Positions 3,162 to 26,388 of a stretch of DNA of 43,253 nt are shown here, piece by piece (positions within the stretch are counted from its first letter, which is position 1; every line of letters starts with the position of its first letter). The stretch comes from Clostridia bacterium (GTDB taxonomy: Bacteria; Bacillota; Clostridia; Oscillospirales; CAG-272). The stretch spans positions 1-43,253 of the forward strand of contig JAGAMD010000009.1 in the NCBI GenBank assembly GCA_017624905.1, in the 5' to 3' direction. Made by a program: the position numbers and the translations under genes. The notes beneath the pieces are model-generated. The model had not been told where the DNA came from and made no database searches. It saw only the letters and a program-made list of their open reading frames with translations.

Positions 3162-4007
3162 TTATACTCCTGAATATGATGCAAAGCCGCAGTCAATAGG
3201 TAAAACTACGCCTGTGATTGCTGAAGCTGAGCGATCATCACATAGAAATAGTGTAGCTCCCAATAGTTCACTTGCATCAACATAGCGATCCATTGGTGTA
3301 CCCTTTAAAATCTTTGCACTGCGTGGTGTTGGAGTGCCGTCCTCATTAAACAGAAGTGATCTGTTTTGTGCTGACACTAAAAATCCCGGGGCAATTGCGT
3401 TACAGCGAATGCCTGTACCTGCAAAGTGAGTTGCTAACCACTGTGTAAAATTAGATATACCTGCCTTGGCTGCTGAATAAGCAGGGATTTTTGTAAGAGG
3501 TGTATATGCGTTCATTGATGAAATATTAAGAATACAGCCATTCTTTTTATCTACCATATCCTTAGCAAAAACCTGTGTTGGCAAGAGTGTGCCTTGGAAG
3601 TTGAGCTTGAATACAAAATCAACGCCCTCTGGGGATAAGTCAAAGAAGGATTTTCCTCCCTCCTTTGCCTCGTGCTGATACTCGTTATCTGTTGTGGCAC
3701 GTGGATTGTTTCCGCCTGCTCCATTTACAAGTATATCACAAGTGCCAAGGTCGTTTAATACCATTTGGTGTACGCTTTCAAGTGCGTCTTTATCGAGTAC
3801 ATTTGCTGAATAGCCCTTACAAATAAAGCCCTCGCTGGTTAGTTCATCAGCTAGTGCTTTTACTGTAGCTTCGTTTAGGTCAAGTGCGGCAACCTTAGCA
3901 CCGGATTGTGCAAAAGCACGAGCCATAGCGCCACAAATAAGTCCGCCGGCTCCTGTTATTACAACTACTTTGCCTGTGTAGTCTATATTTAGTGGAAGAT
4001 TTATCAT
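3162..4007 (-). CDS. uxuB: D-fructuronate reductase (D-mannonate oxidoreductase), SDR type
   Basis: Short-chain dehydrogenase of 281 residues that would interconvert D-fructuronate and D-mannonate with NAD(P)H. The glycine-rich nucleotide site (VVITGAGGLICGAMA) is near the N-terminus. It is followed by LDLN at the second strand, NGAGGN, a catalytic Ser in ISSMNAY, and the YSAAK Tyr-Lys pair. This is the short SDR form, not the longer mannitol-dehydrogenase-type UxuB of E. coli. The frame extends upstream to 4172, but that part lies inside uxuA. ATG at 4007 has AAGGAG seven bases ahead, and the following residues (INLPLNIDYTGK) are typical of the family. It starts one base after the uxuA stop codon, so the two are translationally coupled. 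Confidence 0.85.
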   Translation of the reverse strand: MINLPLNIDYTGKVVVITGAGGLICGAMARAFAQSGAKVAALDLNEATVKALADELTSEGFICKGYSANVLDKDALESVHQMVLNDLGTCDILVNGAGGNNPRATTDNEYQHEAKEGGKSFFDLSPEGVDFVFKLNFQGTLLPTQVFAKDMVDKKNGCILNISSMNAYTPLTKIPAYSAAKAGISNFTQWLATHFAGTGIRCNAIAPGFLVSAQNRSLLFNEDGTPTPRSAKILKGTPMDRYVDASELLGATLFLCDDRSASAITGVVLPIDCGFASYSGV

Positions 4008-5295: not shown

Positions 5296-5323
5296 TTGTA
5301 AGATAAATTTTTTATGCTATAAT
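5296..5323 (+). promoter_or_regulatory. Promoter of the reductase/pls-like operon
   Basis: TTGTAA (5296-5301) and a perfect TATAAT (5318-5323) have a 16-base spacer. TG one base before the -10 gives an extended -10 element. It lies about 46 bases upstream of the GTG start at 5370. Confidence 0.65.
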
Positions 5324-5369: not shown

Positions 5370-8315
5370 GTGAACAGAATGATTGACGATTTACAAGAGT
5401 ATGTAAAAGAAATTGAAAAAGCATATGGTGACAGAGATGCTTATCGATACATAGTTGAAAATACTGTTGTAAGCAAAACATTTAAGAAATTCAAGAAGGA
5501 TATAGATGCTGTTGCCTCTTGGCTTGTCGAAAAGGGCTGGCAAGGAAAGCATATTGCTATTATTGGTTCATCAAGCTACTATTGGGTTACTACATTTTTA
5601 GGTATTGCTTGTAGTGCCAATGTTGTTATTCCTATTGACAAGATGCTACCTGAAAATGAAATTCTTAATCTCTTAGTAATGGGAGATGTTGATTTTGTTT
5701 TTGTATCAGAGGAATTTGAGCCAATGATGAACAGCATTTTAAAGGCTGACAATAAGGTTACTGAGGTTATAAGCTTTTCCGGTACTCGCTACCGTGAGAT
5801 TTTGCGTACAAAGCCTGTAGAGCTACCTAAGATTGATCCAGATGCTTTAGCCGAGATTTTGTTCACGTCTGGCACTACCGGTGTAAGCAAGGGCGTTATG
5901 CTTAGCCAAAGAAACATCGTTTCTAATATTAATGACATATATAGAATGGATTTTGCACAGAACATAAAAAGGGATCCTGTTGTTATGTCTGTTCTTCCAA
6001 TCCATCACACATTTGAGCTAACAGTTGACAACCTTGGTGTTCTCTTCTGCGGTGCTACTGTTTGTATTAATGATAAAATCGAAAACATCGTTGACAATCT
6101 TAATAGATTTAAGCCATCGGTTATTCTTGTAGTTCCTACTATTGCTGAGGTTTTCTATAAAAAGGTTATGGAAAGCATTTCAACCGGTAAGAACAAGCGC
6201 AAGATTGCTTTTGCAAAAAAGGTCAATCACGTGTTCAAAAAATTAAAAATTGATGTTAGACGTCGCCTATACAAGCAGCTTCTTAGTAGGTTTGGCGGCA
6301 ACTTAACCAACGTTATTGTTGGTGGTGCTGCATTACGCCCTGAGATTGCCGAGGCTTTTGATGAATTTGGAATTAATATGTTCCAAGGATATGGTATGAC
6401 TGAGTGCGCTCCACTTATTTCAGCTAACTATCCAAAGGAAAACAGATACGGCTCTGTCGGTAAGCCTGTTTCATATATGGATGTAAAAATTGAAGGTGGC
6501 GAAATCCTCGTTAGAGGCGATGGCGTTATGCTTGGCTACTACAATAATCCAGAAGCAACTAAGGAAGCTTTTTCAGACGGTTGGCTACACACAGGAGACC
6601 TTGGATATTTTGACGAGGACGGCTATTTATACATAACAGGTCGTTCAAAGAATTTAATCATCCTTGATAATGGTAAAAATATTTATCCTGAGGAAATCGA
6701 GGCTCAGATTGGTGTAATCGAGGGCGTTAAGGATGTTATGGTCTATGAAAGCAAGGGTAAGCTATGCGCTGCTATTCAACCGACCGATATAAATGACAAA
6801 TCACTTACACAAAGCATTAGAATAGCTCTAAAGGAAGTAAATGCTCTTTTACCATCATATAAAAGAGTTGTTTCTGCTTCATTTATAGCAAGAGACTTCC
6901 CTAAAACAACTACTCTAAAAATCAAACGTAAGGAAGCTCTTAAGATGATTGAGGAGCTTGTTACAAATCAAACTGTTGTATATGTTCCACCAACAACGGA
7001 GGAGCAAAAGCGTATTATTGCTGCGTTTGAGAACGTGCTTGGTCGTAAGAACATTGGTATAAAGGACGATTTCTTTGATATTGGTGGTTACAGCCTAGCT
7101 GCATTTGAGGCTGCTGCGCTTATTGGTATTCCTGCACAAGAGATTTATGAAAATCCAACTGCAGAGTTACTTGAAAAGGCTATGATTGAGGCTAAGCAGG
7201 ACAAGGCTGAGGAGAGCGAAATAAACGTAAACGAGCTTATTAAGCACAATTCAAGCTTACTACATAATGTAGACGAGGTTAAATATGTTCTTCTTACCGG
7301 TGCTACCGGCTTCTTAGGTGCTCATATTCTTAGTGAGCTGCTTAAGAGAAATATGTATGTAATATGTCTTGTTCGTAACGAGGCAAAGCTTAAAAAGGTT
7401 CTTAGATATTATTTCCCTAAGGAATATCAATATTTTAGATACAAGGTTATGATTGGCGATATTGAAAAGCCAAAGCTTGGTTTAAGTGATGAGAACTATG
7501 CTGTGCTTGTAAAACGTGTTGATATGGTAATCCATACAGCTGCCAATGTAAGCCATGCAGGTAATTACAAGGATTTTGAAAGCACAAACGTAATCGGTAC
7601 TCAAAATGTAATCGATTTCTGTATGAAATCAGGTGCTCTTCTACAACACACCTCAACTGCAAGTGTACACGGTGCGGGTACTGTTGCACAAAACAATCCG
7701 GATGCGACCTTTGACGAGTTTAGCCTTGACATAGGTCAAAACCATACACAAAACGTATATATTCACTCTAAATATAAGGCTGAGGAGCTTATACTTCTAG
7801 CAAGAGAAGCCGGTCTTAAGGCGAACATTTTCCGTATTGGTAACCTTACCTGGAGAATGAGCGACGGTAGATTCCAAAGAAACTCTCAAGACAACGGCTT
7901 TGTTGGTCGTTTTAGAGGTTTATTAAAGGTTAAAAAATACAGTAAGGAGCTCGCTGAGTATCCTATCGACTTTACTCCTGTTGACGAGTGTGCAGATGCT
8001 TATGTTCGTCTTGCACTTTACAACAAGGTAAATAACATTTACAACTTGTATCATCCACAGCTATTTACTGTTGACCAAATCAAGAGAAAATTCTTTACTC
8101 GTATTAAGAAGGTGCCTCGTGAAACCTTTGAGCAATCACTTAAGGCATCAATTACAGATAAGGACGTAGCTATTTTGTCATTCTACAACTCTATTGCATC
8201 TAACTCAAAGAACATTCCTATGAGCAACGAGTTTACTGTAAACGAGCTTAAGAATCTAGGCTTTAAGTGGTCACGTATTGGTATTAGATACCTAAGCTAT
8301 ATTAAAAAGATTTAA
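5370..8315 (+). CDS. Carboxylic acid reductase-like protein: adenylation, carrier and thioester-reductase domains
   Basis: A 981-residue protein with three domains. Residues 1 to about 530 are an acyl-activating adenylation domain of the long-chain acyl-CoA ligase type: FTSGTTGVSKG at 165-175, GYGMTEC at 340-346, TGDLGYFDEDGY at 408-419, and a catalytic Lys in TTLKIKR (K517). Residues about 540-610 are a carrier domain with the phosphopantetheine Ser in DIGGYSL (S575). Residues about 635-981 are a thioester reductase with LLTGATGFLGAHI, STASVHG and the YxxxK motif YIHSKYK. Such an enzyme would adenylate a carboxylic acid, load it on the carrier and release it as an aldehyde with NAD(P)H. The adenylation type suggests a fatty acid; that is inference. 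There is no condensation domain, so it is not a peptide synthetase. GTG at 5370 is chosen because GAGG sits eight bases ahead; the ATG at 5379 is too far away. It is first in an operon with two pls-like genes. Confidence 0.8.
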   Translation: MNRMIDDLQEYVKEIEKAYGDRDAYRYIVENTVVSKTFKKFKKDIDAVASWLVEKGWQGKHIAIIGSSSYYWVTTFLGIACSANVVIPIDKMLPENEILNLLVMGDVDFVFVSEEFEPMMNSILKADNKVTEVISFSGTRYREILRTKPVELPKIDPDALAEILFTSGTTGVSKGVMLSQRNIVSNINDIYRMDFAQNIKRDPVVMSVLPIHHTFELTVDNLGVLFCGATVCINDKIENIVDNLNRFKPSVILVVPTIAEVFYKKVMESISTGKNKRKIAFAKKVNHVFKKLKIDVRRRLYKQLLSRFGGNLTNVIVGGAALRPEIAEAFDEFGINMFQGYGMTECAPLISANYPKENRYGSVGKPVSYMDVKIEGGEILVRGDGVMLGYYNNPEATKEAFSDGWLHTGDLGYFDEDGYLYITGRSKNLIILDNGKNIYPEEIEAQIGVIEGVKDVMVYESKGKLCAAIQPTDINDKSLTQSIRIALKEVNALLPSYKRVVSASFIARDFPKTTTLKIKRKEALKMIEELVTNQTVVYVPPTTEEQKRIIAAFENVLGRKNIGIKDDFFDIGGYSLAAFEAAALIGIPAQEIYENPTAELLEKAMIEAKQDKAEESEINVNELIKHNSSLLHNVDEVKYVLLTGATGFLGAHILSELLKRNMYVICLVRNEAKLKKVLRYYFPKEYQYFRYKVMIGDIEKPKLGLSDENYAVLVKRVDMVIHTAANVSHAGNYKDFESTNVIGTQNVIDFCMKSGALLQHTSTASVHGAGTVAQNNPDATFDEFSLDIGQNHTQNVYIHSKYKAEELILLAREAGLKANIFRIGNLTWRMSDGRFQRNSQDNGFVGRFRGLLKVKKYSKELAEYPIDFTPVDECADAYVRLALYNKVNNIYNLYHPQLFTVDQIKRKFFTRIKKVPRETFEQSLKASITDKDVAILSFYNSIASNSKNIPMSNEFTVNELKNLGFKWSRIGIRYLSYIKKI

Positions 8316-8328
8316 TGAAAGGAAAGCT

Positions 8329-11250
8329 ATGAGAATAGGTATAGATATAGGTTCAACAACAATTAAGTGTGTTGTACTTGACGACCAAGGTAATCTCCTA
8401 CATAAAAGCTATGAGCGACACTTCGCTATGATTAAGGAGAAAACCCGTGAGGTTATAAAGGGACTTATAGATAAATTCAATATAAATGAGCCTGTAGTAT
8501 GTGCCGTTTCCGGTTCGGCGGGTATGGGCCTTGCTGAACGAGCAGGTATCCCTTTTGTACAAGAGGTTTATGCTACTAAGGTAGCTATAAGTCATCGTCT
8601 TCCAAGCACTGATGTTGTTATTGAGCTTGGCGGAGAGGATGCCAAAATCCTCTTCCTAAAAGGAAATCTTGAGGTACGTATGAACGGTACGTGCGCAGGT
8701 GGTACAGGTGCATTTGCTGACCAAATGGCAAGCTTAATGCAAATTACACCGGATGAAATGAATGAGCTTGCAAAAAATTATGAAAAAATCTACTCTATTG
8801 CATCACGTTGCGGTGTATTTGCAAAAACTGATATACAGCCTCTTCTTAACCAAGGTGCAAGAAAAGAGGATATTTCCGCAAGTATTTTCTACGCAATAGT
8901 TAACCAAACAATTACAGGCTTGGCTCAGGGCCATCCTATTGAAGGTAATATTGTATATCTTGGCGGTCCGCTCACCTTCTTAACTGAGTTAAGACGAGCT
9001 TTTGATAAAACACTAAATTGTGAGGGCATTTGTCCCGAGGACTCACTTGTTTTTGTTGCACTTGGTGCAGCATATTATGCCGAGGAAAAGGTTGACCTTT
9101 CTAAAGCGTATGACATAATCGGTGAAAAATCAGATTTTGGTGTTGAATCCTCTCTTAAGCCTCTTTTTGCAAATCAAGAGGAATTTGATGAGTTTATCGA
9201 AAGACACAATAAAAATAGAGTTCCAAGAAAGGAAGGCATTGAGTACGAGGGTGATGCTTATCTAGGTATCGACTCCGGCTCTACAACCTTAAAGGTTGTT
9301 CTTACTGACAAGGACGGTGCTATTATCTTCTCTAAATATCAATCAAACCAAGGTAAGCCTATTGATGTAGTTAGAGAAACACTGCTTGAAATGTATGAAA
9401 AATATCCTAATGTCAAGATTGTATCCAGTGCAGTTACAGGCTATGGCGAGGATATGATGAGAAATGCTTTAGGCATTGATATTGGAGTTGTTGAAACAGT
9501 TGCTCACTTTACTGCTGCTAAGTATTTTATGCCTGATGTTGAGTTTATTATCGACATCGGTGGTCAAGATATGAAGTGCTTTAAGATACGCAACGGAGCT
9601 ATTGACAACATATTCCTAAACGAGGCTTGTTCTTCCGGATGTGGCTCTTTCTTACAGGCGTTTGCATCCTCGCTTGGATATCCAATTGACGAGTTTGCAA
9701 GGCTTGGACTTTTTGGCAACAATCCTGTTGACCTTGGCTCAAGATGTACTGTATTTATGAACTCCTCCGTAAAGCAAGCACAAAAGGAAGGTGTAACTGT
9801 TGAAAACATTTCAGCAGGTCTTTCCATCAGCGTTGTTAAAAATGCCCTTTACAAGGTTATTAGAGTTCACTCGGCTGATGAGCTTGGCAAGAAAATCGTT
9901 GTTCAAGGTGGAACATTCTTAAACAATGCCGTTCTTCGTGCATTTGAGCAAGAAATCGGCGTTAATGTTATCCGTCCTGACATTGCCGGAATGATGGGTG
10001 CATACGGTGCTGCTCTTTATGCAAATCAAATGAAAAAGCACAGCGGTTACTCTACAATTCTTTCTTATGAGGAACTAAAGAATTTCAGCTACACAATAAA
10101 AAATGTTACTTGTAATGGCTGTAACAACAAATGCCACTTAACCGTTAATGATTTTGGTAACGGACGCAAGTTCATTGGTGGCAACCGTTGTGAAAAGCCC
10201 GTAACAAACAAGGCTCAAGACGATTCACTCAATCTATATGAGTATAAAATCAAAAAGCTGGCAGAATTCCCTGAGGGAGATGGAGCTCGTGGTGTTATAG
10301 GTCTGCCTATGGGACTTAATATGTACGAGATGTATCCATTTTGGAATACTTTATTCAGAGCTCTCGGCTTTAAGGTTAAGATGAGCGGATTCTCAAACAG
10401 AAAGCTATATCTAAAGGGACAAGGTACTATTCCATCTGATACAGTATGCTTCCCTGCTAAGCTTATGCACGGTCATATTCAAAAGCTAATTGAAATGGAT
10501 GTTGATGCTATCTTCTATCCTTGTATGACCTACAACTTTAACGAGAAAAAGGCTAAAAACAACTTTAACTGTGCAGTTATTGCCGGATATCCGGAGGTTA
10601 TTGAGGCAAATACACTTAATTTTGGTGATATTAAATATATCAACGATTATGTTGGCCCTCATAACAGACGTGGCTTTGCCACAAGATTCAAAAAGGTGCT
10701 TCAAAAGCATTTTGGCACATTTACTGTCGGCGAGGTTAAAAAGGCTTGTAAGTTAGCTTATAAGGCTTATGATAGCTATATGGCTGATATTAACCGTGAG
10801 GGATTAAAGATAGTAAGCGAGGCAAGAGCACAGGGCAAGAAGATTATCGTTCTTTCCGGTCGTCCATACCACGCAGATCCTGAGATTAACCACGGTATAC
10901 ATAAGCTTATTTGTGCACTCGGCTTTGCAGTTGTATCCGAGGATGCAGTTGCATCTATGGTGCCTAAATTCAAGGTAAATCTACTTAGCCAATGGACATA
11001 TCACCAAAGACTGTTCTCCTCTGCTAAGTATGTTGCAGGGCAAGATGATATGTATCTTGTACACCTTGTTTCCTTCGGTTGCGGTCTTGATGCACTTACA
11101 ACCGATGAGGTGCGTAGTATTCTTGAATATTATGGTAAGCTATATACACAAATTAAGATAGACGAGGTTACTAACCTCGGTGCAATTAAGATTCGTCTAA
11201 GAAGCCTAATTGCCGCAATCGAGCAACAAAGTAAGGAGGGATTAAGATGA
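8329..11250 (+). CDS. plsA: Tandem ASKHA activase with a Cys-rich C-terminal domain; PlsA-like plasmalogen synthase subunit
   Basis: A 973-residue protein. It has two copies of the BadF/HgdC-type ATPase activase, each starting with a phosphate loop (GIDIGSTTIK at 4-13, GIDSGSTTLK at 313-322). Each copy also has two Cys at the positions that hold the [4Fe-4S] cluster in HgdC: C122 and C161, C434 and C473. One chain therefore holds all four ligands that a HgdC dimer would. Residues about 585-960 are a DUF2229-like domain with C595, C598, C602 and C621. This layout matches the large activase/reductase proteins related to benzoyl-CoA reductase and 2-hydroxyacyl-CoA dehydratase, including the clostridial plasmalogen synthase that reduces ester lipids to vinyl ethers. 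Which of the two pls names belongs here is my inference. It starts 13 bases after the upstream gene and overlaps the next by ATGA. The function could also be reduction of another acyl substrate. Confidence 0.7.
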   Translation: MRIGIDIGSTTIKCVVLDDQGNLLHKSYERHFAMIKEKTREVIKGLIDKFNINEPVVCAVSGSAGMGLAERAGIPFVQEVYATKVAISHRLPSTDVVIELGGEDAKILFLKGNLEVRMNGTCAGGTGAFADQMASLMQITPDEMNELAKNYEKIYSIASRCGVFAKTDIQPLLNQGARKEDISASIFYAIVNQTITGLAQGHPIEGNIVYLGGPLTFLTELRRAFDKTLNCEGICPEDSLVFVALGAAYYAEEKVDLSKAYDIIGEKSDFGVESSLKPLFANQEEFDEFIERHNKNRVPRKEGIEYEGDAYLGIDSGSTTLKVVLTDKDGAIIFSKYQSNQGKPIDVVRETLLEMYEKYPNVKIVSSAVTGYGEDMMRNALGIDIGVVETVAHFTAAKYFMPDVEFIIDIGGQDMKCFKIRNGAIDNIFLNEACSSGCGSFLQAFASSLGYPIDEFARLGLFGNNPVDLGSRCTVFMNSSVKQAQKEGVTVENISAGLSISVVKNALYKVIRVHSADELGKKIVVQGGTFLNNAVLRAFEQEIGVNVIRPDIAGMMGAYGAALYANQMKKHSGYSTILSYEELKNFSYTIKNVTCNGCNNKCHLTVNDFGNGRKFIGGNRCEKPVTNKAQDDSLNLYEYKIKKLAEFPEGDGARGVIGLPMGLNMYEMYPFWNTLFRALGFKVKMSGFSNRKLYLKGQGTIPSDTVCFPAKLMHGHIQKLIEMDVDAIFYPCMTYNFNEKKAKNNFNCAVIAGYPEVIEANTLNFGDIKYINDYVGPHNRRGFATRFKKVLQKHFGTFTVGEVKKACKLAYKAYDSYMADINREGLKIVSEARAQGKKIIVLSGRPYHADPEINHGIHKLICALGFAVVSEDAVASMVPKFKVNLLSQWTYHQRLFSSAKYVAGQDDMYLVHLVSFGCGLDALTTDEVRSILEYYGKLYTQIKIDEVTNLGAIKIRLRSLIAAIEQQSKEGLR

Positions 11251-12530
11251 AGAAAGATTCACCTTACAGAGACAGAGTAAAATTCACTCTAAAGATGAAA
11301 AAGGACTACACTATTCTCTCTCCTGCTATGGCTCCTATACACTTTAAAATACTTAAGCCTATTCTATTAAGACAAGGCTTTAAGATTGAAATTATGGATG
11401 CTGAAGGGCCTGAGGTATTGCAGCTCGCACTCAAATATCTACACAACGATATGTGCTATCCATCAATGCTTACAACGGGACAAATGCTGGCTACTATTAT
11501 GAGTGGCAAGTACGATCCTGACAAGGTGGCTATGGTTATCACTCAATCCGGTGGTGGTTGTCGTGATAGTAACTATATCAACCTTATGAGAAAGGCATTT
11601 GAAAAAGCCGGTTATCCTAATGTACCATTTATTTCTGCTAACATTTGGGGGCTTGAGCTTAACTCCGGTGTAAACCTTACAGCAAAGTCACTTCTTATGG
11701 CACTTGCCGGTCTTATCTATGGCGATATGATTATGATTGTTAGCAATCAAGTACGTCCATATGAGGTTAACAAGGGCGAAACAGATGCAATGATAGATAA
11801 GTGGACTACTAAGCTTGGCGAGGGCTTTTTCAAGGGTCGTGGCTTTACCACTAAGGCTATAAAGAAAAACCTCAAGGCTATTGCAGATGATTTTGCATCT
11901 ATCGAGATAAAAAAGACTCCTAAGGTTAAGGTCGCAGTTATTGGTGAGCTATTCTTAAAGTATTCTGCTCCCGGTAACAACCACTTAGAGGAGTTCTTGG
12001 CTGAGCAGGATTGCGAGGTATATGTACCAAGTATTTTAGGCTTTGGAATTTACAAGACAAATGGAGCTTTAGAGGATTTAAGGCTTTATGGTGGCAACAA
12101 GGCTAAAAAAGCCATCTTAGAGGTTGCTATGAAATATATGTTCAAGATGGAGGATATACTAATATCTGCTATTGAAAACAATCCTAATTTTGTGCCGCCG
12201 GAAAGAGTAAATGACCTTAAAAAGCGTGCCGAGGGTGTTATTGGTATTGGCAATAGTATGGGCGAGGGTTGGTATTTGGCAGCTGAAATGCTTGAGTTTG
12301 CTGACCACGGCTATGAAAATATTGTTATCGTTCAACCATTTGGCTGTCTACCTTGCCACGTTGCAGCTAAAGGTATGATGAACAAGGTTAGACGTATTGA
12401 CCCACGACTCAATATCGTAGATATTGAATACGACCCGGGTGCAACCAAGGTAAACCAAGAAAACAGAATAAAGCTTATGCTTGTAGTTGCCAAGGAAAAT
12501 CTTAACAAAAAAGAAGCTGAAAATAAATAA
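11247..12530 (+). CDS. plsR: 2-hydroxyacyl-CoA dehydratase-like subunit; PlsR-like partner
   Basis: A 427-residue protein of the HgdB/BcrC-like superfamily, expected to carry a low-potential iron-sulfur cluster reduced by the upstream activase. Conserved Cys occur in NDMCYPS (C70), SGGGCRDSNY (C105) and FGCLPCHV (C367, C370). MGEGWYLAAEM and the C-terminal EYDPGATKVNQENR are also typical. Together with the 973-residue upstream protein it makes 1,400 residues, about the length of the single-chain versions of this family, so here the chain is encoded as two genes. The start overlaps the upstream stop (ATGA, 11247-11250) and has its own GGAGG six bases ahead, so the split is a real gene boundary and not a sequencing frameshift. 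It ends at a strong terminator. Confidence 0.7.
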   Translation: MKKDSPYRDRVKFTLKMKKDYTILSPAMAPIHFKILKPILLRQGFKIEIMDAEGPEVLQLALKYLHNDMCYPSMLTTGQMLATIMSGKYDPDKVAMVITQSGGGCRDSNYINLMRKAFEKAGYPNVPFISANIWGLELNSGVNLTAKSLLMALAGLIYGDMIMIVSNQVRPYEVNKGETDAMIDKWTTKLGEGFFKGRGFTTKAIKKNLKAIADDFASIEIKKTPKVKVAVIGELFLKYSAPGNNHLEEFLAEQDCEVYVPSILGFGIYKTNGALEDLRLYGGNKAKKAILEVAMKYMFKMEDILISAIENNPNFVPPERVNDLKKRAEGVIGIGNSMGEGWYLAAEMLEFADHGYENIVIVQPFGCLPCHVAAKGMMNKVRRIDPRLNIVDIEYDPGATKVNQENRIKLMLVVAKENLNKKEAENK

Positions 12531-12563
12531 AAAACAGACACAGGGCACCCTGTGTCTGTTTTT
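12531..12563. terminator. Bidirectional terminator between convergent operons
   Basis: AAAACAGACACAGGG (12531-12545) pairs with CCCTGTGTCTGTTTT (12548-12562), a perfect long stem with A and T runs outside. It closes the plus-strand pls-like operon and the minus-strand araM-HAD operon, whose stop codon it touches. Confidence 0.85.
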
Positions 12564-13285
12564 TATAGTAAATCCTTTACTACGTCTTCAAAATTTCTAT
12601 AATCGTCAATGGTTAGATAATTGAAGTCGGCTTTATATACGCTCTCGTCATTACCGCCCACGCCGTAGTCATCACCTATATAGGCTACCTCGCTGTGTGA
12701 TATACCATTTTCCTTACAATAGAGGTCTAAAGCATAGTATTTATTGTATGGCTTTGGGGACATATCAAAGGATGACGAGCCACCGACAAAAACATTGTAA
12801 TTAGCAAAGCAATCAGAAACCTCGTCATATATGGCTCTACGCTTTTCTCTTGTTGGATCAAAGGCTAGCTTTTCCTCTTGAATTGCCTTTGTACCAAGAA
12901 TTGGGAAGGTAATGCAGCCTGATGGATGAAATTCAACACTTTCACCACGGAACGAGGTAAAGCCATATTTTTCTCTAAAATATGCAACCTTTTCTTCTAT
13001 ATAAGATTTATCAACGTCAAAGGTAACATCTCTTTTAATATCCATCTTACCTGTTTGATGGTTATATGTAGCATACTGTAAGCCATAGTTACCTATTATA
13101 TCAATAGGGTATTCATTCATTTGATTGAAAATTCTAGAAGTTTGACCTGCACCAACCATAATAAGCTTATACTTTTTTGATAGCTTGTCTAATACGCTTT
13201 TATTTTTCTCATCAAGCTTTTCTCTATGCTGTGTAAGTGTGCCATCTAAATCCATAGCGATTAATTTTATTTTTGTCTTGTCCAT
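12563..13285 (-). CDS. HAD-superfamily phosphatase, phosphomannomutase-like
   Basis: A 240-residue HAD-IIB protein. Motif I is MDLDGTLTQ near the N-terminus with two catalytic Asp. Motif II is the Gly of VGAGQTS, and the C-terminal motif is YIGDDYGVGGND. GGSSSFDMSPKPYNKYYAL resembles the substrate loop of eukaryotic-type phosphomannomutases, but bacterial relatives of this length are usually phosphatases. It follows the glycerol-1-phosphate dehydrogenase gene 25 bases downstream on the same strand, so it may act on the product of that enzyme or a sugar phosphate linked to it; that is inference. AGAGGA precedes the ATG. Confidence 0.8.
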   Translation of the reverse strand: MDKTKIKLIAMDLDGTLTQHREKLDEKNKSVLDKLSKKYKLIMVGAGQTSRIFNQMNEYPIDIIGNYGLQYATYNHQTGKMDIKRDVTFDVDKSYIEEKVAYFREKYGFTSFRGESVEFHPSGCITFPILGTKAIQEEKLAFDPTREKRRAIYDEVSDCFANYNVFVGGSSSFDMSPKPYNKYYALDLYCKENGISHSEVAYIGDDYGVGGNDESVYKADFNYLTIDDYRNFEDVVKDLL

Positions 13286-13310: not shown

Positions 13311-14567
13311 TCATTCTCCTAGGTCATAGTTATACCACAAAACAGTATATCTATCCTTTAAATCCTTTGCATATCTAACTGCGTTTTCTATCTTTTTCTT
13401 GCCGTACAGCTTGTAAAACTCGCTTATGTCAAGTTCACAAAGCGATAGCATTTCCTTGATTTGTTTTGATGTCGGCATTTTACTTAAAATACCTTTGATT
13501 TCTTGCTCTTTTTCTTTATAAATAGGTAGTCTGTTTTGATTATATCTGCCCATTTTTTCTTGTAATTTTATACAGCCGTTTGCTACCTTGCCATATGTTG
13601 CTTGCATATTTTTTAGGTACTCTTCTCTTGGCTCTGTATATTGCTCACTTGGAAGCTCTTTTTTAAGTAGATTTTCTCTAATTTCGGCAGTTATAACGGT
13701 TGAATATACAACATCTATTCCGTGTGGAAAATATGGCTCATTTTTAACTATTCCTGTTATTTCAAAATAGTGTGAAAGATGATGCTCACTACCTGAGGCC
13801 GGACGGGAGGTGGTTGCAAATGACATCATAATGCCGACTACAATAAGAGCCTCGGTTAAATTCTTTACACTCTCTTCCTCTCTTTTTAGAAGTCCATTGG
13901 CAGTTTTCAAGGTTTTCTCTATCATTTTGTAAGTAGTATCATATATGTACTGACAGAAATATTCATCATTTACAGCACGGGAAAGCTCCCAATCATTTAG
14001 TGCGGAATATTTACCAATAATATCACCATAGCCCGCCTTTATCATTTCCATTGGGGCATTTTTTAAAACTTTAGTGTCGGCTATTATAGCAAGTGGTAAG
14101 CCGGCTGGCACTGTTTCCTTCATTCCATTTAAAATCATAGCAGCACCGCTTGAGGCATAGCCGTCCATTGATGGAGCTGTTGCAACTATCATATATGGAA
14201 TACCCGAAAAATGAGAAACATATTTACAAAGGTCCTGTATAACACCTGAGCCAATGCCGACAATTAAATCAATGCCCTCTATATTTTCGTTTACCTTGTC
14301 TATTGCTCTTTCATCAGGAATTAAGACTGTTTTGCCAGAAAAAATCACTCTGCTTTTTACCTTATTATAAAGAGCCTTTTCTGTTTCTTTTCCACATGCA
14401 GAGTATGTATTATCATCAGCAACTATCAAAACATTTTTGTATTTTTCTGTCAGGTGGGAAAGGTGCTTTGTAGCATTGCTTTCGATATATACATTTTCAA
14501 TTGGGCATTTATGCTCCTTGCCACAAGAATTGCATTTGACGCCCTTTAAAATTCGATTAATATCCAT
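13311..14567 (-). CDS. araM: Glycerol-1-phosphate dehydrogenase (AraM/EgsA type)
   Basis: A 418-residue metal-dependent dehydrogenase of the iron-alcohol-dehydrogenase/glycerol dehydrogenase superfamily, which would reduce dihydroxyacetone phosphate to sn-glycerol 1-phosphate. The nucleotide site is GIGSGVIQDLCKY, followed by ATAPSMDGYAS. Metal ligands are visible as Asp in GYGDIIGKY, His in GSEHHLSHYFE and His in YFPHGIDVVYS. The N-terminus has CNSCGKEHKC, a CX2CX3HXC pattern at C12, C15, H19 and C21 that may bind zinc. In Bacillus, AraM supplies glycerol 1-phosphate for an archaeal-type ether-linked prenyl glycerol. No arabinose genes are present here. It is first in an operon with the HAD phosphatase and converges on the pls-like operon. 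Confidence 0.85.
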   Translation of the reverse strand: MDINRILKGVKCNSCGKEHKCPIENVYIESNATKHLSHLTEKYKNVLIVADDNTYSACGKETEKALYNKVKSRVIFSGKTVLIPDERAIDKVNENIEGIDLIVGIGSGVIQDLCKYVSHFSGIPYMIVATAPSMDGYASSGAAMILNGMKETVPAGLPLAIIADTKVLKNAPMEMIKAGYGDIIGKYSALNDWELSRAVNDEYFCQYIYDTTYKMIEKTLKTANGLLKREEESVKNLTEALIVVGIMMSFATTSRPASGSEHHLSHYFEITGIVKNEPYFPHGIDVVYSTVITAEIRENLLKKELPSEQYTEPREEYLKNMQATYGKVANGCIKLQEKMGRYNQNRLPIYKEKEQEIKGILSKMPTSKQIKEMLSLCELDISEFYKLYGKKKIENAVRYAKDLKDRYTVLWYNYDLGE

Positions 14568-21458: not shown

Positions 21459-22760
21459 ATGATTTGGTCTAAAGAAGAAACTCTACCAAGAGAAGAATTA
21501 GAAAAAATACAATTAGAACGTTTGAAGGAAACCGTTAATCGTGTTTACGAGAAGGTGCCGGCTTACAGAAAGAAAATGGACGAGGCAGGAGTTAAGCCCG
21601 AGGACATAAAGACACTTAAGGACTTAGCCAAGCTGCCATTTGTAACAAAGCAAGATATGAGAGACAACTATCCTTTTGGTCTTTTTGCAGTGCCAAAGGA
21701 TAAGCTTGTTAGAATACACGCATCGAGCGGTACAACCGGTAAGCCAACTGTTGTTGGTTATACACAAGGCGACCTTGAAACCTGGACTGAATGTGTATCA
21801 AGAATTGCTTGTATGGGTGGTGCCAGTGAAAAGGATGTTGCTCAAATATGCTTTGGCTATGGTATGTTTACAGGTGCACTTGGTCTACACTATGGTCTTG
21901 AAAAGATAGGTGCTGCTATTGTACCATCTTCAACCGGTAATTCACAAAAGCAGATTATGTATATGCAGGATTTTGAAACCTCGCTCTTGGTTGCAACACC
22001 ATCATATGCTCTACGACTTGCCGAGGTTGCCCGTGAGATGGGAGTTGAGCCACAAAAGGATTTAAAGGTTAAAATTGCTCTTGTTGGTAGTGAGCTGCTA
22101 ACTGATGCTATGCGAGAGGAAATGCATAAGTTTTGGGGTAAGGATTTACTTATCACAACCAACTATGGTATGAGTGAATTAATGGGCCCCGGTGTTTCCG
22201 GCGAATGTCTTGAGCATTGCGGCTTGCATATAAATGAGGACTACTTTATCCCTGAAATAATTGATCCAAAAACAGGCGAGGTTCTACCGGCAGGTGAGCA
22301 GGGTGAGCTTGTAATCACTTGTATAAAGAAAGAGGGCTTACCTCTTATTAGATATAGAACAAAGGACATTACTCGCTTGTTCTACGATAAATGTAAGTGT
22401 GGCAGAACGCTTTGCCGTATGGAAAACCTGTGTGGCAGAAGTGATGATATGCTTAAAATACGTGGTGTTAATGTATTTCCAAGCCAAATTGAGGAGGTTA
22501 TTCTCTCAGTTTCCGAGCTTGGCCCACACTATGAAATTATTCTTGAGCGTGAGGGCTATCTTGACAAGCTAACTGTTAAGGTTGAGCTTGCACATTCAAC
22601 AGACTCATTTAGTGAGCTTGAAAGAATTAAAAAGCTTGTTCAAAGCAAGCTTAAAATCATTCTTGGTCTTGATGCCAAGGTAATGCTTGAATCTCCAAAC
22701 ACATTACAGCGTTTTGAGGGTAAGGCAAAAAGAGTTAAGGATTTAAGAGGTATAAAATAA
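21459..22760 (+). CDS. paaK: Phenylacetate-CoA ligase, first copy
   Basis: A 433-residue adenylate-forming enzyme of the PaaK family. [18 protein letters not shown] is the phosphate-binding motif, followed by TNYGMSELMGPGVS, RYRTKDITRL and the hinge region [12 protein letters not shown]. Aerobic relatives make arylacetyl-CoA at the cost of ATP. Next to iorAB in a fermenter the reaction probably runs the other way, making ATP, arylacetate and CoA; that direction is inference. Its TAA overlaps the iorA start (TAATG). A second ligase of nearly the same length lies downstream of iorB. Confidence 0.9.
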   Translation: MIWSKEETLPREELEKIQLERLKETVNRVYEKVPAYRKKMDEAGVKPEDIKTLKDLAKLPFVTKQDMRDNYPFGLFAVPKDKLVRIHASSGTTGKPTVVGYTQGDLETWTECVSRIACMGGASEKDVAQICFGYGMFTGALGLHYGLEKIGAAIVPSSTGNSQKQIMYMQDFETSLLVATPSYALRLAEVAREMGVEPQKDLKVKIALVGSELLTDAMREEMHKFWGKDLLITTNYGMSELMGPGVSGECLEHCGLHINEDYFIPEIIDPKTGEVLPAGEQGELVITCIKKEGLPLIRYRTKDITRLFYDKCKCGRTLCRMENLCGRSDDMLKIRGVNVFPSQIEEVILSVSELGPHYEIILEREGYLDKLTVKVELAHSTDSFSELERIKKLVQSKLKIILGLDAKVMLESPNTLQRFEGKAKRVKDLRGIK

Positions 22761-24499
22761 TGGCAAAGAAAACTATAATGCTCGGTAACGAGGCTATCGC
22801 AAGAGGTGCATACGAGGCAGGTGTTAAGCTATCAAGTGCTTATCCCGGAACTCCAAGCACGGAAATAAGTGAATATTTAGCAAAATATGATGAAATTTAT
22901 ACAGAATGGGCTCCTAATGAAAAGGTGGCAACTGAGGTTGCCATTGGTGCTTCCTTCTCAGGCGTTCGTAGCTTAGCTTGTATGAAGCACGTTGGCTTAA
23001 ATGTAGCATCAGATCCGCTTTACACATTTGCATATACGGGTGTAAATGGCGGTGCTGTTATTGTTGTTGCTGACGACCCGGGTCTTGCATCATCTCAAAA
23101 TGAGCAGGACACTCGTATGGTAGCAAGAAGTGCACACGTTCCTGTTCTTGAGCCATCCGACAGCCAAGAGGCAAAGGATTTTATGAAGATTGCTTATGAA
23201 ATAAGTGAGGAATATGATACACCTGTTATTTTAAGAACTACAACTAAGCTTGCACACTCACAAAGCATTGTTGAGCTTTATGACAGAGTTGAAGTTAGTG
23301 ACAAGGAATATAACAGAAACACAGCTAAATATGTTATGATGCCGGCATCAGCTATTGGCAGACATTTAGTTGTTGAGGCAAGAGAAAATCGTCTAGCTAA
23401 GGATGCTGCTAACCTATCTGTAAATAAAATGGAAATGGGCGATACTAAGGTTGGCTTTATTACCTCCGGTATTGCATATCAATATGTACAAGAGGTTTGT
23501 CCAAACGCAAGTATCTTAAAGCTTGGTCTTGTCAACCCGCTATCTAAGGATTTAATTGCTGACTTCTGCTCTCGTGTAGAAACAGTTTACGTTTTTGAGG
23601 AGCTTGAGCCTGTTATTGAGGAGCAAGTAAGAGCTTGGGGCTTTGACGTTATTGGCAAGGGAGCATTTACTCGTCAAGGCGAATATAGTGCTAACCTACT
23701 TAAGCGTGTGCTCTATGGTAATGACGATTGTGTATTTGATAAACAAGAAGCACCGGCACGTCCTCCAATTCTCTGCCCGGGCTGTCCACACAGAAGTGTT
23801 TATTCAGTTCTTAACAAATTAAAGATTCACGCATCCGGCGATATTGGATGCTACACTCTTGGTGCAGTTCCACCACTTGGTGTTGTTGACACCTGCGTTT
23901 GTATGGGTGCATCAATCTCTGCTCTACACGGTATGGAAAAGGGCAAGGGCAAGGATTACATAAAGAATTGGGTTGCTGTAATCGGAGACTCAACATTTTT
24001 ACACACCGGTGTAAACTCACTTATTAACCTTGTTTATAACAAGTCAACTGCAACAGTTATGATTCTTGACAACCGTACAACAGGTATGACAGGACATCAA
24101 GACCACGCAGCAACCGGTAAAACACTAAAGGGCGAGGAAACATATGCTATCGACATTGCTGAGCTATGCCGTGCTATTGGTGTTAAAAATGTTATTGAGG
24201 TTAATGCCTTTGATGTAAAAGAGCTTGAAAAAATAGTTAAGGAAAGCACACAAAGTGATGAATTGACTGTTATTATTACTAAAGCTCCTTGTGTACTTTT
24301 GAAGGGACAAAAGTTCCCAAATGTATGTAAGGCAAATCCTGAGGCTTGTAAAAAATGTGGTATGTGTCTAAAGATTGGATGCCCTGCTATTACAAAAAAT
24401 GCAGATGGCACAATTAAAATTGATGGTACTATGTGTAATGGCTGTGGCCTCTGCAAGAATTACTGCAAATTCAATGCTATTGAAACGGTGGAGAGATAA
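22760..24499 (+). CDS. iorA: Indolepyruvate:ferredoxin oxidoreductase, alpha subunit
   Basis: A 579-residue thiamine-diphosphate enzyme that decarboxylates aryl pyruvates (indolepyruvate, phenylpyruvate, hydroxyphenylpyruvate) to aryl-acetyl-CoA and reduces ferredoxin. The pyrimidine domain starts with GNEAIARGAYEAGV and SAYPGTPSTEI. The C-terminal half has CPGCPHRSVY, DIGCYTLG and the TPP/Mg motif starting GDSTFLHTG and ending in LDNRTTGMTGHQDH. Residues about 525-575 hold two [4Fe-4S] motifs (KKCGMCLKIGCP and CNGCGLCKNYC). Length is usual for the family. It is coupled to iorB two bases downstream. Confidence 0.95.
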   Translation: MAKKTIMLGNEAIARGAYEAGVKLSSAYPGTPSTEISEYLAKYDEIYTEWAPNEKVATEVAIGASFSGVRSLACMKHVGLNVASDPLYTFAYTGVNGGAVIVVADDPGLASSQNEQDTRMVARSAHVPVLEPSDSQEAKDFMKIAYEISEEYDTPVILRTTTKLAHSQSIVELYDRVEVSDKEYNRNTAKYVMMPASAIGRHLVVEARENRLAKDAANLSVNKMEMGDTKVGFITSGIAYQYVQEVCPNASILKLGLVNPLSKDLIADFCSRVETVYVFEELEPVIEEQVRAWGFDVIGKGAFTRQGEYSANLLKRVLYGNDDCVFDKQEAPARPPILCPGCPHRSVYSVLNKLKIHASGDIGCYTLGAVPPLGVVDTCVCMGASISALHGMEKGKGKDYIKNWVAVIGDSTFLHTGVNSLINLVYNKSTATVMILDNRTTGMTGHQDHAATGKTLKGEETYAIDIAELCRAIGVKNVIEVNAFDVKELEKIVKESTQSDELTVIITKAPCVLLKGQKFPNVCKANPEACKKCGMCLKIGCPAITKNADGTIKIDGTMCNGCGLCKNYCKFNAIETVER

Positions 24500-24501
24500 T
24501 T

Positions 24502-25074
24502 ATGACAAAGAATATAATGATTGTAGGTGTAGGTGGACAAGGTACACTTCTCACTAGTAGAATTATTGGAAAAACTGCTCTTGAAGCAGGTTATGACGTG
24601 AAAATCTCCGAGGTGCACGGTATGGCACAACGTGGCGGTAGCGTTGTTACCTTTGTTAGATACGGAGATAAGGTTTGCGAGCCTGTTTGTGAGGAAGGTC
24701 AGGCAGATGTAATTATTGCATTTGAAAGGCTTGAGGCTTTAAGATACTCACATTTCCTCAAAAAAGACGGTGTTTTGATTGTAAACGATTGTAAAATTGA
24801 ACCTATGACCGTTGTTATAGGTGCTAAGGAATATCCGGAAGAAATTTTAGAGGGACTAGAGAAAAATCATACTCTTTACGCTATTGACGGACAAAAAATA
24901 GCTCTTGAGCTTGGCAATTCAAAGGTGCTTAACTCTGTTGTTCTCGGCTTTGCTGCTCCTTATATCGGCTTTGGCAAGGATGCTTGGCTCAATGTAATTG
25001 AGGCTACTGTACCACCTAAAACAATTGAAATAAATAAAAAAGCTTTCGCATTTGGCTACGAGGCAGAAAGATAA
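24502..25074 (+). CDS. iorB: Indolepyruvate:ferredoxin oxidoreductase, beta subunit
   Basis: A 190-residue gamma-type 2-oxoacid oxidoreductase subunit. The start GVGGQGTLLTSRIIG is the conserved CoA-binding-domain loop, and HGMAQRGGSVVTFVRYG is the family signature. It pairs with IorA to form the catalytic heterodimer or tetramer. The ribosome binding site GGAGAG lies within the last codons of iorA. Confidence 0.95.
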   Translation: MTKNIMIVGVGGQGTLLTSRIIGKTALEAGYDVKISEVHGMAQRGGSVVTFVRYGDKVCEPVCEEGQADVIIAFERLEALRYSHFLKKDGVLIVNDCKIEPMTVVIGAKEYPEEILEGLEKNHTLYAIDGQKIALELGNSKVLNSVVLGFAAPYIGFGKDAWLNVIEATVPPKTIEINKKAFAFGYEAER

Positions 25075-25089
25075 AAAGAGGAAAAAGCA

Positions 25090-26388
25090 ATGATTTGGAA
25101 TGAAACAAAGGAATGTATGTCAAGAGACCAAATGACAAACCTACAAAGTGCAAGACTAGTTAAGCTTGTTGACTATGTTTATCACAATGTAGAATTTTAT
25201 CGCAAAAAAATGCAGGCTATTGATCTTATGCCCGGTGATATTAAGTCTATCGAGGATATCACAAAGCTTCCTTTTACTACAAAGGATGACCTTCGCGATA
25301 ACTATCCATTTGGACTTTTTGCTGTTCCTAATTCTGAAATAGTTAGAATACACGCATCTAGTGGCACAACCGGAAAAGCAACCGTTGTTGGTTATACAAG
25401 ATATGACCTAGATGTTTGGGCTGAATGTGTTGCAAGATGCTTATCTATGGCCGGTGTCGGCAAGGACGATATTATTCAAATTGCATACGGCTATGGCTTA
25501 TTTACAGGCGGTCTTGGTGCACACGGCGGTGCTGAAAAGATTGGAGCTACCGTTGTTCCTATGAGCACAGGTAACTCAAAGAAGCTGACAACTATGATGG
25601 TTGACTTTGGTGCAACTGCAATTGCTTGTACACCATCATATTTACTACACATTTCCGAGGTGCTTGAAAACGAAGGACTTCTTGACAAAATCAAGCTAAA
25701 GGCTGCTATTTGTGGTGCTGAGCCTTGGACTGAAAAGATGCACAAGGAAATCGAATCAAAATTGAACATTAAAGCATTCGATATCTATGGTCTATCCGAG
25801 GTTATGGGTCCTGGTGTTGCCTGCGACTGTCAATATCACAAGGGTCTACACGTTTGCGAGGACCACTTCTATCCTGAAGTTCTTAATTCTGCTACATTAA
25901 CCCCTGTGGCTGATGGAGAAACCGGTGAGCTTGCGTTTACTACTCTTACAAAAGAAGGTATTCCTCTCATTCGTTATAGAACCAAGGACTTAACAAGCAT
26001 TGACCACTCTACCTGTGAGTGTGGACGTACAAGTGCTCGTATTTCAAGATTCAAGGGCAGAGTTGACGATATGCTTATCATTAGAGGAGTTAATGTATTC
26101 CCAAGCCAAATTGAGGCTGCTCTTTGTGAGGTTGAGGAGGTTACACCTCACTATATGATGATTGTAGACAGAGTTAACAACCTTGATACTCTTGAGGTTC
26201 AGGTTGAGCTTGACTCTAAGTTCTACACAGACGAGGTAAGGGCTATTGAATCACTTACAAAGAAGATTTCACACGTTATTTTACAAGCACTTGGAATTAA
26301 TGCTAAGGTTAAGATTGTTGAGCCACAAACTCTTGTTAGAAGCGAGGGTAAGGCTGTTCACGTTCTTGATAAGCGCAAATTATATTAA
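25090..26388 (+). CDS. paaK: Phenylacetate-CoA ligase, second copy
   Basis: A 432-residue PaaK-family ligase, co-linear with the copy upstream of iorA. It shares [33 protein letters not shown] and [12 protein letters not shown]. Differences lie mainly in the substrate half ([13 protein letters not shown] and [11 protein letters not shown] against GALGLHYGLEKIG and SELLTDAMREE). This suggests a tandem duplication with divergence toward another aryl acid, for example indole versus phenyl or hydroxyphenyl acids; that is inference. AGGAAA precedes the ATG. Confidence 0.9.

Follow-up and report, generated by a model that had tools for sequence, protein, structure and literature searches.

A three-gene operon of Clostridia joins a carboxylic-acid-reductase-like protein to a PlsA/PlsR-type pair, a candidate ether-lipid module

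Introduction

The locus described here raises the question of what a carboxylic-acid-reductase-like gene does directly in front of a gene pair related to the plasmalogen synthase PlsA/PlsR, which forms 1-alkenyl lipid from diacyl lipid without oxygen and is encoded by two genes in Clostridium perfringens and by one gene in Enterococcus, Lactococcus and others. The locus lies on contig JAGAMD010000009.1 of a Clostridia bacterium (the window, meaning the whole stretch of 43,253 nucleotides analysed), which is contig 39 of a 1.5 Mb bin with 75% completeness. The three open reading frames (ORFs) are all on the + strand:

5370..8315, + strand: gene 1, carboxylic-acid-reductase-like, 981 residues, GTG start (ORF, Pfam and curated family matches, orthologues)
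8329..11250, + strand: gene 2, PlsA-like, two activase parts and a DUF2229 reductase part, 973 residues (Pfam, tree)
11247..12530, + strand: gene 3, PlsR-like reductase/dehydratase subunit, 427 residues (ORF, fold match of the predicted structure)

It is close to certain that the three genes form a real and functionally linked module. For its product, an ether-lipid module is proposed with about even confidence, in which gene 1 would provide an aldehyde and a remodelled PlsA/PlsR pair would build it into an ether lipid. An earlier note on this DNA knew of no described system of this kind, and no carboxylic acid reductase or thioester reductase joined with plasmalogen or 2-hydroxyacyl-CoA dehydratase genes was found described, either in the searches of openly licensed papers or among the titles listed for a looser one.

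Conservation of the operon

For the comparison across named genomes, GTDB contigs were searched with a carrier-reductase alignment, the best 80 of 214 confirmed loci were kept, and adjacency was scored by tblastn. Gene 2 was found directly behind gene 1 on the same strand in 45 of the 80 loci; the gap between them was measured in 43 loci, and 41 of these had one below 100 bases. Gene 3 was present in 39 of the 45, which are all those whose contig extends past gene 2; in the other six (L066, L082, L086, L090, L095, L097) the contig stops within gene 2. The adjacency of the three families, whose conservation the earlier note had left to a genome search, is thus a recurrent one. Among the remaining loci, 27 have a Fe-type alcohol dehydrogenase (Fe-ADH) within 500 bases of gene 1, five have neither partner and three are ambiguous, L129 and L133 for lying at contig ends and L130 for a reversed gene 2 piece. 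Both partners together were found in none. In L130, the reversed piece (3757-3981) stands directly after gene 1 and reflects an inversion or an assembly join.

At least 20 of the 45 record titles of adjacent loci name herbivore gut (rabbit, horse, cattle, goat, sheep, deer, buffalo, yak), and two of the records that carry the operon have strain titles (Lachnospiraceae AB2028 and G41). Six of the 80 named loci come from genomes also included in the family or order samples described next (G handles).

In the same-family sample of 196 genomes, full-length gene 1 was observed, besides the window's, in G176, G118, G115 and G068 (70-77% identity), all of which carry genes 2 and 3 in order, and gene-1 pieces were observed in G158 and G142. 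Gene 3 of the linked type (E at most 1e-155) occurred in six of the 196 genomes, namely the window's, these four and G158, and this set is exactly the set with operon-type gene 1 (Fisher p 9.6e-11, from hand-entered counts). The gene-1 piece of G142 has no linked-type gene 3, and its neighbours resemble those of G228, with what looks by eye like a two-component system. Among the 394 genomes of the order sample, the only further gene-1 orthologues of ~1000 residues are those of G228 and G469, both without adjoining genes 2-3; the remaining gene-1 matches at E 1e-40 were fragments or, judging by open-frame length, non-ribosomal peptide synthetase (NRPS) reductases. A gene-3-like match at E 1e-30 was found in 268 of the 394 genomes, the best relative after the window's own copy being 53% identical among the matches listed.

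Over 34 operons, the identities of gene 1 and of genes 2-3 are correlated (Mantel r 0.90, with 0 of 1000 permutations as high). The surroundings vary by lineage, with thioredoxin genes, an amidohydrolase, tryptophanyl-tRNA synthetase and others as neighbours (names by eye), and the commonest flanking family occurs in only 10 of 36 operon loci.

Regarding the operon structure in the window, the gap of 13 bases between genes 1 and 2, the ATGA overlap of genes 2 and 3 (11247-11250) and a terminator-like stem were all found as the earlier note had described them, and a purine-rich, Shine-Dalgarno-like stretch stands ahead of each of the three starts (by eye). The single promoter of that note fared less well: a well-placed site exists, but such sites are not commoner in the operon region than by chance (29 versus 26.5, sd 5.8, in shuffles), so the "one promoter" rests on position only. 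The stem can also serve the convergent gene at 12563-13285.

5296..5323, + strand: promoter-like TTGTAA-16-TATAAT with TG extension (consensus match only)
12527..12566, no strand assigned: terminator-like stem of 18 pairs between the operon and the convergent gene (stem found in the sequence)

Gene 1 and its alternative partner

The domains and the active-site serine of gene 1 are located as follows:

5418..6962, + strand: adenylation domain, long-chain acyl-CoA-ligase-like, residues 17-531 (PF00501, PF23562)
7092..7094, + strand: Ser575, predicted phosphopantetheine attachment site (Ser in 87 of 87 aligned proteins)
7287..8159, + strand: thioester reductase domain, residues 640-930, with TGATGFLG and YIHSK motifs (PF07993, TIGR01746)

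The acyl-adenylation, carrier and thioester reductase architecture that the earlier note had read from the translation was borne out by PF00501 (E 4.2e-63), by PF07993 (E 2.9e-44) and by Ser575, which sits in GGYSL and is conserved throughout the aligned gene-1 proteins, the window's included. The carrier domain of gene 1 itself gave no Pfam match reaching E 0.001; that of a fused relative (L126) did. SGTTG, the first lysine of TLKIKR, Ser575, the glycines of TGATGFLG and the Y and K of YIHSK are kept in 86 or 87 of the 87 proteins, and the key motif residues of carboxylic acid reductases are present in the adenylation, carrier and reductase parts. A phosphopantetheinyl transferase, which the earlier note had named as something to look for, was represented by a family match in 13 of 13 genomes searched, including the window's.

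The same order of adenylation, carrier and reductase is seen in carboxylic acid reductases (NF041592; PDB 5MSC) and in NRPS reductases of the AusA type. Unlike the curated carboxylic acid reductases, gene 1 scores 164.5 bits against NF041592, below the cut-off of 1300, which places it outside that family, and its best PDB match is the AusA reductase. Descent as an NRPS remnant was considered and rejected, since the adenylation domain is 34-47% identical to FadD-like ORFs of the family, among the matches listed, versus 28% to the NRPS-like module of L061, and the lack of a condensation domain in gene 1 by Pfam also counts against it. In L061 (8160-13588), a FadD-like ligase, a short carrier-like protein, an NRPS-like adenylation-reductase protein and a phosphopantetheinyl-transferase-like gene stand together (names by eye).

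The enzyme class of gene 1 is thus supported by homology and conserved motifs, and its substrate is presumably a fatty acid. Gene 1 would adenylate the acid, load it onto its own carrier at Ser575 and reduce the thioester, and the formation of fatty aldehyde by this enzyme is considered likely.

None of the 27 loci with Fe-ADH has gene 2. The dehydrogenase is in one ORF with gene 1 in 19 of them, lacks an ORF call in L134 and is a separate gene in seven, six of which lie ahead of gene 1 on the same strand and one (L105) behind it on the opposite strand; Pfam confirmed the Fe-ADH in L053 and L126. The 19 fused loci, between L118 and L141 (Clostridia), have adenylation, carrier, thioester reductase and Fe-ADH in single proteins of ~1360-1520 residues where complete, and such a protein is predicted to be an acid-to-alcohol enzyme in one chain. 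L117 (737-6942) contains a tandem pair of gene-1-like proteins. Gene-1 orthologues without linked Pls were also observed in Bacteroidales bins (L096, L102, L105), by transfer or misbinning.

A carrier-reductase tree of 40 chosen gene-1 rows was rooted on 12 NRPS reductases; in another tree of scan loci, in which L082 is labelled as a contig end, 8 loci were left out as repeats or short, and L095 by length. In the rooted tree, the fused-ADH rows and the tandem pair fall on one side (98/92), and the adjacent-ADH rows and the Pls-linked branch on the other (99/97). Grouped within the Pls-linked branch are 21 linked rows, three with neither partner, and L105. Because this branch lies among dehydrogenase-linked ones, the partner seems to have been swapped, and the simplest reading seems to be that the dehydrogenase is the older partner, replaced once by the Pls pair, with later losses. 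Since an alcohol dehydrogenase uses aldehyde, such an older partner indirectly suggests that aldehyde is what gene 1 hands on. Of the roles given to gene 1 in the earlier note, making fatty aldehyde fits these partners, and nothing here spoke for recycling it; gene 1 might also deliver an activated acyl group, the third role named there.

The Pls-type pair and its changed gene 3

In gene 2, Pfam found two BcrAD_BadFG stretches and DUF2229:

10297..10950, + strand: DUF2229 of gene 2 (PF09989; Pfam)

For gene 3, Pfam gave a weak HGD-D match (20.5 bits, under the cut-off of 28.4), and no sequence match was found among PDB structures at E up to 1. A structure model of gene 3 was built from 30 sequences (mean predicted local distance difference test, pLDDT, 83.4; predicted template modelling score, pTM, 0.86). 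Its first 14 PDB matches were 2-hydroxyisocaproyl-CoA dehydratase, benzoyl-CoA reductase and double-cubane subunits, and with 11 of them at E < 0.001, all from that superfamily, the modelled fold is that of a catalytic subunit of the benzoyl-CoA reductase/2-hydroxyacyl-CoA dehydratase superfamily. The activase/dehydratase layout that had been claimed for genes 2-3 therefore stands. The pair also shows the composition of the PlsA/PlsR type, with two BcrAD_BadFG parts, DUF2229 and an HgdB-like second reductase part. It shares with PlsA/PlsR the domain order, the split into two genes and the family cysteines, of which 15 columns are common to 60 or 61 of 61 Pls-family rows.

To place the pair, a gene 2+3 tree of 62 rows was built with 34 operons (the window, 4 same-family and 29 named loci; partial and near-copy loci left out), and a second tree left out 21 of these rows. 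The linked pairs form one clade in both (34 rows, support 100; 19 rows, 100/100). Its sister row is the split pair of Subdoligranulum variabile, where gene 1 is absent within 6 kb on either side and whose gene 2 is 59% identical to that of the window. Next outward are the split pairs from Fusobacterium, from two Oscillospiraceae bins and from Lachnospiraceae, the last of these preceded by a patatin-like phospholipase gene. The fused Pls proteins, among them those of Listeria and Collinsella and the second copy in the window's bin, branch outside the split pairs. Genes 2-3 are thus placed, on the question the earlier note had reserved for a tree, within the PlsA/PlsR-type family and not in a non-lipid clade. 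The second copy is a fused Pls protein of 1432 residues on a different contig of the window's bin, 47.8% identical to gene 2 and 36.6% to gene 3.

The PlsR of C. perfringens is 41-42% identical to those of lactic acid bacteria, and the PlsA 48-55%, according to the available text of PMC12838417; PMC8788747 gives the accessions of the C. perfringens proteins as Q8XL48 (PlsA) and Q8XL47 (PlsR). In the present set, the PlsR part of Listeria is 39-42% identical to non-linked split pairs and 47-51% to fused ones. Since the former range matches the PlsR figure, the C. perfringens pair may lie in the same split group, for which the PlsA figures are not decisive.

Within the linked clade, the following residues of gene 3 differ from those of the non-linked relatives compared (alignment):

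11565..11567, + strand: Asp107, Ala in 55 of 55 non-linked relatives, two residues after C105
12354..12356, + strand: Cys370, Asn in 55 of 55 non-linked relatives, three residues after C367
12426..12428, + strand: Glu394, Asp in 55 of 55 non-linked relatives

All 34 linked gene 3 proteins have D107. One of them is cut off before positions 370 and 394, and the other 33 all have C or S at 370 and E at 394. A, N and D stand at these positions in 27 of 27 non-linked pairs and in 28 of 28 further gene-3 relatives (48-53% identity; 28 of 29 loci recovered), and a simple check found no identical stretch common to the two non-linked sets. Gene 3 therefore departs at 107, 370 and 394 from the other members, a feature defined here and not taken from a published definition. 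Based on C105, C367 and the helix starts of the model, it is argued that residues 107 and 370 lie near the cluster.

Among columns invariant in the 27 non-linked pairs, the linked clade has changed 5 of 36 in gene 3 versus 1 of 160 in gene 2 (Fisher p 8.5e-4). The five are A107D, N370C/S, D394E and conservative changes at 50 and 235. In the control groups, changes at invariant columns were all outside gene 3 (patatin-linked clade 1, nine-row fused clade 2, L190/L191 3, S. variabile 1), and Fusobacterium had zero. The mean identity of gene 3 to 12 fused Pls proteins was 34.6% for linked pairs (33.3-35.8, n=33) versus 39.1% for other split pairs (38.0-40.1, n=15), while for gene 2 it was 45.9% versus 45.3%. 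By these sequence comparisons, gene 3 alone has evolved faster in the linked clade.

The pair thus differs from PlsA/PlsR in its own clade, in A107D, N370C/S and D394E, in the faster change of gene 3 and in the carboxylic-acid-reductase-like gene in front. Because the clade is separate and its changes lie near the presumed cluster cysteines of gene 3, calling genes 2-3 plain plasmalogen synthases appears to go too far; of the earlier label "plasmalogen-synthase-like", the family membership is kept. The clade-specific residues offer a direct mutational handle on what sets the substrate in Pls-type enzymes.

Proposed function and its alternatives

In the proposed ether-lipid module, the fatty aldehyde from gene 1 and a hydroxyl of a lyso- or glycerolipid would form a hemiacetal, which would be dehydrated or reduced to a vinyl or alkyl ether. 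The ATPase activase parts of genes 2-3 would push low-potential electrons into the [4Fe-4S] reductase/dehydratase. In this branch, the Pls pair would have taken the place of the aldehyde-using dehydrogenase of other gene-1 loci, with the cysteine surroundings of gene 3 changed. That genes 2-3 make an ether lipid is judged probable; that the aldehyde of gene 1 is what they use is a closer call, held at slightly less than even confidence.

Published work bears on parts of this picture. ElbD of Myxococcus xanthus sets a precedent for ether-lipid making in which acyl activation, a carrier and an acyl reductase are combined, and i15:0 aldehyde was found in the wild type and not in elbD mutants (available text of PMC9131029). 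ElbD differs from gene 1, by its description and not by a sequence comparison, in an N-terminal reductase-like (FAR-like) domain, an acyltransferase domain and an aerobic host; in gene 1 the reductase is C-terminal, and Pfam gave no acyltransferase match. Long-chain aldehydes, not alcohols, were used for bacterial plasmalogens according to the accessible part of PMC9702350.

Several observations weigh against the proposal. The same part of PMC9702350 reports whole-cell labelling results in favour of plasmalogen formation straight from the diacyl lipid. The carrier motif of the window's gene 1 is GGYSL versus GGDSL in 67 of 87 aligned proteins, the single Pls-linked gene-1 branch has moderate support (84/87), and that branch includes L105, which lacks gene 2 and has its Fe-ADH gene on the opposite strand. 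The five of 80 loci with neither partner (L079, L096, L102, L107, L117) indicate that gene 1 can work without genes 2-3; three of the five genomes with partnerless gene 1 carry a single Pls gene at another place, and the other two, which are Bacteroidales bins, carry none. The distant fused pair L194 and L195 (one Paludibacteraceae bin) has changes at 22 otherwise invariant columns, 6 of them in gene 3. In addition, the changed active site of gene 3 could mean a substrate that is not a glycerolipid.

The alternative that survives best, possible but doubtful, is that genes 2-3 are an ordinary PlsA/PlsR or glycerol ester reductase (Ger) acting on a diacyl lipid ester, with gene 1 only shaping the chain supply or making a separate fatty aldehyde or alcohol, and co-transcription giving joint control. 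The retained Pls-family cysteines agree with this. Ger, which makes alkyl ethers in Thermotogota and Desulfatibacillum, is PlsA-like with two activase domains, as gene 2 is, and cannot yet be distinguished from PlsA by sequence, no diagnostic mark being given; no gene-1-like partner is mentioned for it in the available text (PMC13274423). The number of activase stretches was tried here as a mark between Ger and PlsA and dropped, since two were found in 7 of 7 Pls proteins tested, that of Listeria included, so that gene 2 carries no Ger mark in this respect.

Also in favour of an ordinary Pls are clusters of Lachnospiraceae (L181 5627-13544, L183 1745-9699, L179 3812-11680) in which a PlsC-like acyltransferase, an AMP ligase, a carrier protein, a patatin-like phospholipase, PlsA and PlsR stand in a row; Pfam was run on L181, and the carrier protein gene was not called in L179. 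This cluster looks like a deacylation/reacylation set around Pls, which means that acyl activation beside Pls need not imply an aldehyde. Clusters of this kind were found in two genomes that also hold the operon.

Against an ordinary Pls stand the three gene-3 changes confined to the linked clade and the presence of another Pls in most operon genomes: in a PF09989 search of 48 genomes, a second match was found in 25 of 31 operon genomes, so the operon would act in addition to the cell's other Pls enzyme. PF09989 was absent from 6 of 6 genomes with fused gene 1-ADH; five adjacent-ADH Clostridia genomes have one PF09989 gene each, none adjoining gene 1, and the bin of L105 has two fused ones.

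A further alternative, rather unlikely, is that genes 2-3 have left lipids and take the acyl thioester or aldehyde from gene 1 as substrate for a chain dehydration or deoxygenation that gives a new fatty product. The solved members of the superfamily act on acyl-CoA thioesters, which speaks for it, as do the changes near the gene-3 cysteines in the linked clade only; the nearest relatives, however, are Pls-type pairs, and gene 2 is still close to that of Subdoligranulum. Passive linkage, an old neighbourhood kept by descent with no joint function, fits the one common history of the linked genes but is very improbable, because the flanking genes have been exchanged between lineages while the three genes stayed together with short gaps.

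For the ether-lipid module, a more specific and tentative role is suggested by two routes put forward in 1965 (PMC3587585, available text): either the lipid is converted directly, or its acyl chain is removed and an ether chain put in its place, which would be formed via an aldehyde from a fatty acid in the medium. The operon could be the enzyme basis of the second route, in which the sn-1 chain would be exchanged for an ether chain from free fatty acid instead of being reduced on the lipid: gene 1 would make the aldehyde, and the remodelled gene 2-3 pair would attach it to the glycerol oxygen. With PlsA/PlsR, the first route has its genes, and the operon is a concrete, clonable candidate for the second. 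If this were true, rumen and hindgut bacteria could put dietary or biohydrogenation-derived chains directly into ether lipids. The operon might also be connected with the 18:1 dimethylacetals of rumen lipids, from which entry of biohydrogenation intermediates into microbial lipids was considered possible (PMC3587585, in the part available).

Neighbouring genes

Beyond the terminator-like stem, a convergent haloacid dehalogenase-type (HAD) hydrolase gene is followed by a gene at 13311-14567 (- strand), also convergent to the operon, for a protein of the Fe-ADH_2 family (Pfam), which we take to resemble glycerol-1-phosphate dehydrogenase. Both were considered as parts of the system and rejected, as they are not at the matching place in four same-family operons (by eye). 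Further along the window (21459-26388), two PaaK-like ligases flank a pair resembling indolepyruvate ferredoxin oxidoreductase (names by eye).

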